NCBI GenBank assembly: GCA_016401345.1
Contig: JAEACG010000001.1
Location: forward strand, 682,001-746,000
Direction: 5' to 3'
Source of the DNA: Fictibacillus nanhaiensis
GTDB taxonomy: Bacteria; Bacillota; Bacilli; Bacillales; Fictibacillaceae
DNA length: 64,000 nt
Positions 51,428 to 54,423 of this stretch are shown here, piece by piece. The notes beneath the pieces were generated by a model. It was not told where the DNA came from. It worked only from the letters and a program-made list of their open reading frames with translations, and ran no database searches. Position 1 is the stretch's first letter. Every line of letters begins with the position of its first letter. The position numbers were made by a program, and so were the translations under genes.

Positions 51428-51552
51428 GTGAATCCCCTTTCTTACGTTTCAAAAGAATGATTTATGGTAATCTATAATCTCTACGACCTATCATTTATTA
51501 TAATAGTAAATGGTAAAGCATATTCAATCAATTAAATATGAAGGATGTTTAT

Positions 51553-52260
51553 ATGTTAAAAAAGAAATTGCTAGTCTCTATCATTAGTATCGTGTTCCTT
51601 ATGTCTGGCTGTAGTTATTTGACTTCTAACGATGAACAACGAATTCCTGTAAAAGTTGAAAAGGTTGTTGACGGAGATACGATAAAAGTTCGAGTTGATG
51701 GTAAGTTAGAAACGGTTCGCTTTCTGCTCGTTGATACACCAGAAAGTGTTCATCCTTCTAAACCCGTTCAGCCTTTTAGCAAAGAAGCTAGTAATCACAC
51801 AGAAACTATGCTAGAAGAAGCTGATGTTCAGTTAGAGCTTGGAATAGGAGAACGAGATAAGTACGGTCGTCTTCTCGCTTATGTCTATGCAGATGGACAA
51901 AGCGTTCAAGAAAGCCTGCTAAAGAAAGGATTCGCACGTGTAGCCTATGTGTTCGAGCCGAATACGAAATATGTAGATCAGTACGAAAATATTCAAAAGC
52001 AAGCCCAGAAAGAGGGTGTTGGTATTTGGAGCTTAGAGAACTATGTTCAAGAAGAAGGTTATGTTTCAGATAATGAAGAAGAGAAACCACAACACAAATC
52101 ACAAAATGAAGATTGTACGATAAAAGGTAACATCAGCCCTTCTGGAGATAAAATTTATCATCTGGAGAGTGGCCGTTATTATAAAGTGACAAAGCCCGAA
52201 TTATGGTTTTGCACAGAAAAAGAAGCGATGGATTCGGGATTTAGAAAATCTAAACAATAA
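51553..52260 (+). CDS. Secreted thermonuclease (SNase) lipoprotein
   Basis: A staphylococcal-nuclease-type enzyme of 235 residues with a lipoprotein signal (FLMSGC). Catalytic residues are visible: Asp in VVDGDTIKVR, Arg and Asp in VRFLLVDTPES, and Glu and Arg in GIGERDKYGRLLAYVY. The C-terminal 50 residues (DCTIKGNIS, then IYHLESGRYYK, WFCTEKEA) form a small Cys-containing domain often appended to such nucleases. The ATG at 51553 follows AAGGATG. Likely degrades extracellular DNA or RNA with Ca2+. Confidence 0.9.
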   Translation: MLKKKLLVSIISIVFLMSGCSYLTSNDEQRIPVKVEKVVDGDTIKVRVDGKLETVRFLLVDTPESVHPSKPVQPFSKEASNHTETMLEEADVQLELGIGERDKYGRLLAYVYADGQSVQESLLKKGFARVAYVFEPNTKYVDQYENIQKQAQKEGVGIWSLENYVQEEGYVSDNEEEKPQHKSQNEDCTIKGNISPSGDKIYHLESGRYYKVTKPELWFCTEKEAMDSGFRKSKQ

Positions 52261-52263
52261 TAA

Positions 52264-52303
52264 AAACCGCTGATGACTTTTAAAAAGTCATCAGCGGTTT
52301 AAT
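52264..52303. terminator. Long perfect hairpin between convergent genes
   Basis: AAACCGCTGATGACTT pairs with AAGTCATCAGCGGTTT around a short AT loop. On the minus strand TTTTTATTATT follows, so it ends the HesB-like gene; it can also end the nuclease gene. Confidence 0.88.
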
Positions 52304-52306
52304 TTG

Positions 52307-52588
52307 TTAACAACAATCGTCCTGTCCAAGCATCACGAGACCTGATCCATATTTAGAATCTTCAAAGTCTAATTTTAATGCAGAAGTCTGCTCTTTGATC
52401 CTTGGATCAAACGCTACACGAATTCCGTTGATCTCTTCGATAATATCAGAGTTTTCCGGCTCATCCAGAGCCAGGCCAAGCTTAGGACCTCCTCAGCCCA
52501 TTCCTGAAAAGTAAACTCTTATTCCATTGGCGTTGTTCATTTCAAGCACTTCTTCTATATACTTCTTTGCGCTTAATGTTATATCCAT
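52307..52588 (-). CDS. HesB-like protein with in-frame TGA: likely selenoprotein
   Basis: A 94-codon frame from ATG at 52588 (GAGGTG 6 bases upstream) to TAA, broken only by TGA at 52493-52495 (codon 32). It reads MDITLSAKKYIEEVL, then RVYFSGMG-U-GGPKLGLALDEP, and ends VMLGQDDCC. This is the HesB/IscA-like fold, in which GCGG normally holds the first metal-binding Cys; here Sec would replace it. HesB-like selenoproteins are a known bacterial family. A good SECIS hairpin and a strong terminator support an active gene. Usual gene calling would not report it. Confidence 0.88.
52456..52475 (-). promoter_or_regulatory. Candidate SECIS hairpin of the HesB-like gene
   Basis: The minus strand after the TGA folds as CC(T)GGCTC-TGGAT-GAGCCGG: seven pairs with one bulged T. 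The loop begins 25 bases after the TGA and has G at its second position, matching the bacterial SECIS rule. Confidence 0.75.
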
Positions 52589-52732
52589 AACCATCACCTC
52601 TTACAAGAAGTATAACGCAGAAGTGAGGTTATCGTCTAAGAAAGGGATTGATCCATTCCACATATAAGGCAAATGCCATGGTGGTATAATGTGTCCACTG
52701 TAGATGTACAAAATTAGTGAAAGTGTAATTGT

Positions 52733-53686: not shown

Positions 53687-54037
53687 TCATTTTATGCCGA
53701 TAACAAAGCCTGTCCAAGCTGCTAGTAGTCCTAATATATATGTAAGGAACAAATACGTTAGACCTCTTTTAGCATTACTCTTCAATATAGTAACTGCTTC
53801 AAATTGCAAGGTGGAAAAAGTGGTGAGAGCTCCCAAAAAACCAGTCGCATACAGTGAACTCAATAGACTGTCTCCTTCATCTGCCTCTGCCACATACCAC
53901 CCTAACAGAAGCGATCCAGCGACGTTAACAGCCAACGTTCCCCATGGGAAACCTCTATTTATCCGTTGACTAATTAAAAAACGAACAACTGCACCTACGG
54001 CCCCACCTGCTGCTACGGCTATTGTTTGTGCGATCAT
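53687..54037 (-). CDS. crcB: Fluoride channel FluC (CrcB), copy 1
   Basis: A four-helix F- exporter subunit of 116 residues: GAVGAVVRFLISQ (Arg), GTLAVNVAGSLLLGWYV (pore Asn) and FLGALTTFSTLQFE (the Phe-rich TFST motif). Its ATG overlaps the stop of the second copy (ATGA), so the two are translationally coupled and may form a hetero-dimer, as adjacent pairs do in Bacillus (YhdU/YhdV). No fluoride riboswitch is visible upstream of the pair. Confidence 0.93.
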   Translation of the reverse strand: MIAQTIAVAAGGAVGAVVRFLISQRINRGFPWGTLAVNVAGSLLLGWYVAEADEGDSLLSSLYATGFLGALTTFSTLQFEAVTILKSNAKRGLTYLFLTYILGLLAAWTGFVIGIK

Positions 54038-54423
54038 TGTTCTTCACCTGCTTTGCCATAGTAAATAGAACCTAACTTCATTCCCAAGTAGATAGCGATA
54101 ACACCTGTAACAGCACTTGCAGAAAAATATAACAATGCCATTGTATACAGCTGATCCTCAACCAGTAATAATATTTCTGTGTTGAAAGTAGAGAATGTTG
54201 TAAAAGAACCGATTAAACCAGTCTGTAGAGCTACTATTAAATGGTTGTTGTTTATACGTTTCACACCAAAAACAACAAACCAGCCTAGAATAAAACTGCC
54301 GATTACGTTAACCAAAAAAGTCGAAAACGGAAAAGACCCCTGTGGGTGGAAAAGAAAAAGACCGCACCAAAATCGCAGCAGTGCTCCAACTATTCCTCCA
54401 AATGCGACTGCAAGTATTTTCAC
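54034..54423 (-). CDS. crcB: Fluoride channel FluC (CrcB), copy 2
   Basis: The upstream partner of the pair, 129 residues: GGIVGALLRFWCGLFLF, STFLVNVIGSFILGWFVVFG and LIGSFTTFSTFNTEILLL, all FluC hallmarks. It lies 46 bases after the CBS-domain gene on the same strand, and AGGAGG precedes the ATG region. Exports fluoride down its gradient to protect the cell. Confidence 0.93.
   Translation of the reverse strand: MKILAVAFGGIVGALLRFWCGLFLFHPQGSFPFSTFLVNVIGSFILGWFVVFGVKRINNNHLIVALQTGLIGSFTTFSTFNTEILLLVEDQLYTMALLYFSASAVTGVIAIYLGMKLGSIYYGKAGEEQ

Follow-up and report, generated by a model that had tools for sequence, protein, structure and literature searches.

The stretch at positions 52307-52588 of the window, by which we mean the whole 64,000-nucleotide piece of Fictibacillus nanhaiensis DNA analysed here, is almost certainly, judging from sequence, an intact, free-standing gene that encodes a HesB-like selenoprotein, and its apparent break is a recoded UGA. 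We put the probability of selenocysteine decoding, together with membership of the HesB-like selenoprotein family, at roughly 0.95. The recurrent arsenic and persulfide context of the gene's relatives is the more interesting part of the finding than the recoding itself.

Gene structure and conservation of the UGA

Translated on the minus strand from the ATG at 52588-52586 down to position 52307, with TGA read as a residue, the frame gives 93 amino acids followed by TAA, with a single UGA at codon 32 (52493-52495) in the motif GMG-U-GGP; on the plus strand, that frame is interrupted by stops. The gene call draws on this translation, on TGA-bearing orthologues, on dN/dS and on the IscA fold. The ribosome binding site AGAGGTG (52595-52601, minus strand) lies six bases 5' of the ATG, with GAGGTGA present in 18 of the 18 aligned genus sequences. 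An intrinsic terminator with a 17-pair stem and a T tail follows the gene (52264-52300, minus strand). The initial annotation had proposed a 94-codon gene split by TGA, with the TGA at the first metal-binding cysteine, a good ribosome binding site and a strong terminator, all of which hold; it gave neither the strand nor the sub-cut-off NCBI scores, and did not mention that relatives lie in arsenic and persulfide operons.

The terminator search found 2 sites against a mean of 0.3 in shuffled sequence, and the matching site on the plus strand serves the convergent gene at 51538-52260. A putative sigma-A promoter, TAGACG-18-TATACT (52609-52638, minus strand), matches the consensus at 9 of 12 positions, in a region where the promoter search found 2 sites and chance predicts 1.3; TATACT recurs upstream of the gene in every one of the 18 genus sequences, and the other hexamer is more variable in the alignment. 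Overall, the selenoprotein gene looks like a stand-alone unit with its own terminator and a likely promoter, convergent with gene 51538-52260. Further upstream, at window positions 53687-54423 (minus strand), are two tandem genes which we take to be CrcB-like; the pair is found in 11 of 12 genus loci and is absent from the listing of L054.

An orthologue with one internal TGA occurs in every one of the 18 genus genomes, at 72-99% identity. Relatives were confirmed at 99 places in genome contigs and the best 80 were kept; the site, read in all 80, is TGA in 77 (73 by motif search and 4 by eye) and Cys in 3. In the genus set of 18 sequences, dN/dS comes to 0.030 for the codons preceding the UGA and to 0.075 for those following it, the latter falling to 0.056 without the SECIS codons, and these low values beyond the UGA indicate that the downstream part is kept as protein. 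A pseudogene or sequencing error, in which the TGA is a real stop, is scarcely credible: a single TGA does divide an otherwise ordinary frame, but the same TGA recurs in all 18 genus genomes and in 77 of the best 80 relatives, purifying selection continues past it and it is linked to selB (below), so that this reading is refuted as far as sequence can refute it.

In two genus genomes (L021 and L035) the gene's own end codon, after CC, is also TGA, which fits a recoding limited to the UGA that precedes the hairpin. Two candidate sites were rejected. Extra Sec residues in the tail of L085 (SCUNU) were not accepted because two relatives (L094, L097 region) end at that Cys, and the first TGA of the tail was therefore taken as an ordinary stop. 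Locus L142 (genome G434), considered as a TGA form, has Cys at the Sec position and its TGA elsewhere, and was counted as a Cys form.

A SECIS hairpin downstream of the UGA

A bacterial SECIS element is defined as a hairpin just after the UGA with a G at the start of its loop. In the selenoprotein gene the hairpin CUGGCUC-UGGAU-GAGCCGG (52456-52474, minus strand) occupies bases 19 to 37 after the UGA, with stem CUGGCUC/GAGCCGG and a loop, UGGAU, that begins at the 26th base, so it lies a short way past the UGA and carries its G early in the loop. This is the SECIS-like hairpin that had been picked out initially, with 25 bases between UGA and loop and G at loop position 2. Its assignment is supported by frozen silent sites, by pair counts and by its loss in Cys forms.

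The codons GCT CTG GAT GAG are invariant in all the UGA forms counted, 65 of 65 outside the genus and 18 of 18 genus orthologues (83 in total), whereas in 18 other well-conserved codons the commonest codon accounts for 38-98% of sequences. The hairpin is thus frozen at silent sites, with four codons constant although free to vary silently. The other three of its seven codons are less strict (66-94%), and a one-sided rank test of the seven against the 18 gives p 0.003. The codon and hairpin counts exclude L070, since the motif search demanded Pro after Sec, hence 65 of the 66 non-genus UGA forms; the codon-freeze count also excludes four genus paralogues (L036-L039), three of which (L037-L039) read GCC CTG GAT GGG at the hairpin codons, a paired change.

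Covariation was scored on 24 distinct UGA sequences, hand-picked from 74 distinct ones of which 3 are Cys forms. Stem pairing holds in 94.0% of cells, compared with 18-47% when the partners are slid, and two stem pairs carry compensatory substitutions, C-G to G-C in one and U-A to C-G in the other. The hairpin covariation score was matched by none of 500 shuffles; weaker measures were the count of doubly changed pairs, equalled in 79 of 500, and further pair types, equalled in 311 of 500.

Of the 28 loci fetched from the class sample, 22 could be read at the Sec site by the motif search (unread: L144, L151, L154, L155, L157 and L158), and the core CTCTGGNNGAG is present in all 12 UGA forms and in none of the 10 Cys forms. 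Several of these Cys forms keep the LDEP residues and use different codons for them. Four UGA forms of the class sample (L139, L148, L149 and L156) have a changed codon or loop.

Selenocysteine machinery and co-occurrence with SelB

The genome itself carries selA, selB and selD, all over their NCBIfam cut-offs, as well as mnmH and a tRNA-Sec scoring 58 bits against a cut-off of 47, and its selD also holds a UGA, in GGUGCK. Sec machinery in the same genome and TGA-containing homologues in relatives were among the checks proposed in the initial annotation, and both turned up; with the region after the TGA conserved, neither of the contrary outcomes it had named, missing Sec machinery or lack of conservation past the TGA in related genomes, occurred.

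SelB was looked for in 66 genomes, 18 from the genus and 48 that account for 49 of the 69 non-genus loci; it is over cut-off in 63, and the three below it are the three Cys-form genomes; the chance that a random draw of three SelB-lacking genomes would hit exactly these is 2e-5. The class sample, an even draw of 398 genomes, has SelB in 85 and a match at E 1e-12 in 71. Among the 36 genomes with a match at E 1e-20 or better, a limit chosen after the rows were viewed, SelB is present in all 16 that have a UGA form and in 4 of 20 with Cys only (Fisher p 7e-7); the Sec site was read directly in 14 of the 16, and G146, G257 and the unread Cys rows were assigned by whether the match contains an in-frame stop. 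Between E 1e-12 and 1e-20 lie 9 genomes with a TGA row, classed by the row with the Sec site itself unread, of which 8 have SelB and one (G431) does not. Readthrough of the UGA by a near-cognate tRNA, or a functional truncated product of 31 residues, has nothing specific in its favour beyond the truncated product that is expected under selenium scarcity, and is highly improbable given that the conserved hairpin, its absence from Cys forms and the correlation with selB all point to SelB-dependent selenocysteine.

Several further observations concern this machinery. The selB match of Mesobacillus boroniphilus (G038:C232:20379-22151), whose HesB-like gene (L081) is a UGA form, contains an in-frame TGA and aligns only from model position 32 onward, perhaps through a draft error or decay. 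In the window's genome, selD and selB are separated by a phnCDE-like ABC transporter (L013:12569-14982; G000:C1, ~247.6-250.0 kb); its binding protein scores 185 bits with TIGR04553 (putative selenate-binding; cut-off 250), and the transporter may carry selenium. Directly after selB is a family 4 glycosyltransferase gene (L013:15001-15996) with a second, weak match to SenB of the selenoneine pathway (56.8 bits, cut-off 300). Two distant HesB-like proteins flank the sel cluster (L004 and L014:9801-10184; G000:C1, ~238 and 265 kb), one without a ligand cysteine and the other with a single one. Two formate dehydrogenase alpha genes are over cut-off (G000:C1:134095-136101 and 1023400-1025403) and neither has a UGA, which suggests that the Sec machinery may serve few proteins here.

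Fold and family placement

The AlphaFold2 model of the protein (pLDDT 90) has as its best PDB match IscA (1r94; TM 0.81, E 1.1e-7, 24% identity), followed by other A-type proteins and DsrR; model confidence is low (~56) for the tail that holds Cys92/93. In the family profile alignment residue 32 coincides with the first conserved Cys of IscA/ErpA-type chains. Two alignments were picked from the loci, A1 (49 rows, window included) and A2 (54 rows). Invariant in A1 are R24, G29, residue 32 (U or C), P35, D42, D48 and C92, the last of which is nearly invariant in A2.

With C written for U, the best-scoring NCBIfam models are TIGR01911 (HesB_rel_seleno; 50.8 bits, cut-off 66.35) and NF038090 (IscA_HesB_Se; 55.7 bits, cut-off 85), the protein staying below both cut-offs. 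Among the A1 members, one of 49 reaches the TIGR01911 cut-off (66.4 vs 66.35 bits), and the best NF038090 E-value is 9.6e-17, far short of the 85-bit level. The window protein had no Pfam match at E 1, and a PF01521 search of the genome did not list the window gene, so the family call relies on NCBIfam and the fold. On its sequence and UGA, we class the protein as a divergent representative of the established HesB-like selenoproteins that does not reach the curated cut-offs.

A-type Fe-S carriers bind through three cysteines in the pattern C...CxC. The window protein shares with IscA, ErpA and SufA (1r94, 2apn, 2d2a) the fold and the first ligand position, but has Sec in place of Cys and a tail CC in place of CxC. 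Its pattern is accordingly Sec...CC, and it exceeds none of the A-type model cut-offs (TIGR00049, 34.4 bits against 58.8; IscA, 20.1 against 150.6; ErpA, 24.9 against 117). The genome has another A-type protein with a C...CGC pattern (L002). With the HesB-like selenoproteins the window protein shares the fold and Sec at the same place, and the family motif, given as UxGP in the part of a review seen (PMC13188914), appears as UGGP at residues 32-35; it differs from them in its sub-cut-off scores with both curated models.

Arsenic and persulfide genes around relatives

Genes were clustered around the 80 loci and the window, and neighbours were labelled by tblastn (E 1e-8, same strand, 3.5 kb), with CstR, CstB, TusA and DsrE making up the cst label. 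Among the 69 non-genus loci, 39 were labelled ars, 8 cst, 3 both and 19 neither. At equal flanks in the same genome set, matches to the ars/cst references were found at 50 of 69 HesB loci and at 0 of 30 selB loci. The 28 loci of the class sample, with 1.5 kb flanks, gave 17 ars and 11 neither; these loci may partly repeat genomes of the genome-contig set, and L131 and L087 encode identical proteins. Of the 39 ars-labelled loci, only 8 have thioredoxin reductase close by. The three Cys forms from genomes lacking SelB also belong to ars operons.

On a tree of the family (94 columns, 114 rows, 62 of 109 inner branches open), which was used for clustering only and not for gain or loss, the ars label requires 19 changes (shuffled mean 37.9) and the cst label 4 (14.4), at least 3 of the cst changes being forced by starred branches.

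The genus orthologue has neither ars nor cst context in 12 of 12 cases (the window and 11 loci). The relatives behind the functional proposal are ~43-58% identical to the window protein. At E 1e-6 the rest of the 64-kb window gave no match to the ars/cst reference proteins; arsC and the CstR-type operon of this genome lie ~740 kb from the window gene. Four of the 18 genus genomes (G001, G009, G014 and G016) carry a second UGA paralogue directly after a CsoR/CstR-family gene. This paralogue sits between operator-like palindromes and is followed downstream by rhodanese, TusA, DsrE and CstB-like genes, gene names that are in part our assumption; the NCBIfam matches at one of the four loci (CsoR-family, rhodanese, TusA and DsrE2) are all sub-cut-off. 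The window's genome has a CstR-type operon without a HesB paralogue (L169:8743-8843; G000:C1, ~1480.8 kb), in which the palindrome starts are 85 bp apart, compared with 322-334 bp in the four paralogue-bearing genomes. At nine loci (L060, L063, L064, L066, L068, L070, L072, L074 and L075), a gene of ~470 residues, presumably SpoVR-like, precedes the HesB gene by 160-410 bp in the same orientation, and most of these loci have cst genes downstream.

Plasmids carry relatives as well, in 19 records, five of which (from Cytobacillus) list no feature under the match. We read two of these five Cytobacillus ars operons, in which an arsenic transporter and/or arsC, arsD, arsA, trxB and a phosphatase gene are listed (trxB in both) and nothing is listed at the position of the UGA form, after the phosphatase gene; the plasmid gene table describes itself as incomplete, and a gene unlisted there need not be unannotated in the original record. 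A Priestia plasmid has a Cys form at the same place, named 'adhesin'.

Proposed function and alternatives

Arsenite and persulfides are what ars and cst operons deal with. A possible reading, to which we give slightly less than even odds, is that Sec32 and the tail cysteines handle soft electrophiles such as arsenite and persulfide, and that general Fe-S assembly is not the protein's task. We infer this from the neighbours of the relatives, because the window and the genome lack nearby ars/cst genes. The downstream hairpin almost certainly directs SelB and Sec-tRNA to insert selenocysteine at UGA32, and where selenium is absent the product would end at 31 residues. On the IscA fold, Sec32 takes the place of the first IscA ligand, with Cys92 and Cys93 at the tail, and together they would form a site that binds, passes on or reduces soft thiophilic species (arsenite, persulfide sulfur). 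Thioredoxin reductase might recharge the Sec32 site. The Fictibacillus gene, outside ars/cst operons and with its own likely promoter, would then be a standing protector. The 19 of 69 loci without either context, the solitary window gene and the low-confidence cysteine tail all count against this function.

The nearest alternative is an ordinary A-type Fe-S carrier (IscA/SufA/ErpA-like) in which Sec merely replaces a cluster-ligand Cys. The IscA fold, the placement of Sec32 at the first ligand position and the invariance of C92 in 49 rows (near-invariance in 54) agree with such a carrier. We nevertheless consider it unlikely, as the genome already has an A-type protein with C...CGC, the window protein ends in CC and not CxC, 50 of 69 non-genus loci adjoin ars or persulfide genes, and no suf or isc gene was recognised on reading the 40 largest neighbour clusters.

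A role in selenium metabolism (storage or delivery of selenide or selenium), with the gene riding in ars and cst operons that handle chalcogen or metalloid stress, appears improbable. In a non-systematic look, the UGA-Sec genes met in the genome were the window gene and selD, both FdhA copies being without UGA, which would suit such a role; but the gene is far from the sel cluster (C1:734 kb vs 245-253 kb), and the three Cys forms of SelB-less genomes are likewise in ars operons.

Extended to the group, the soft-electrophile reading would dedicate the Bacillales HesB-like selenoprotein to the detoxification of arsenic and persulfide, with Sec carrying or reducing arsenite and sulfane sulfur; its gene would be hidden by the UGA in some listed ars operons, have Cys where selB is absent and stand free in Fictibacillus. 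This proposal is tentative, and we rate it a little short of an even chance.

Relation to previous work and significance

HesB-like selenoproteins are, as the initial annotation had it, an established bacterial family, according to the parts of two papers seen (PMC1794560, PMC13188914). In the portions of the sources consulted, 11 are given in a 2006 table (PMC1794560), and 90 proteins from 86 organisms were counted in 2016 (PMC5029168); a 2026 review places the family among those with largely uncharacterized functions (PMC13188914). A member from Methanococcus maripaludis was identified by mutagenesis and 75Se labelling, with its function called not clear, and the disruption mutant still fixes nitrogen, as stated in the part of that paper seen (PMC11097638). 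The ars1 operon of Bacillus sp. CDB3 (arsRYCDATorf7orf8) has a putative HesB-like protein as orf7, according to the parts seen of two reports (PMC4562236, PMC5481582). As with many relatives here, orf7 belongs to an ars operon and is next to a gene for a dual-specificity phosphatase, going by the portion of the report seen (PMC4562236). It was reported as HesB-like, and 'seleno' is absent from the main text of PMC4562236 and PMC5481582; orf7 is in an ars operon, whereas the window gene is in none. Among the matches listed, in sources seen in part and covering few subscription journals, we found no published link of HesB-like selenoproteins with ars or CstR operons, and a search for 'selenoprotein' together with 'Fictibacillus', with the same coverage of journals, returned no paper.

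The Bacillales branch of HesB-like selenoproteins lies mostly under the current model cut-offs. With repeated ars and CstR-type neighbours, and with UGA or Cys largely tracking selB, an orphan family gains a testable hypothesis, and the arsenic-resistance and sulfur-detoxification operons of the relatives are a clue to its role.
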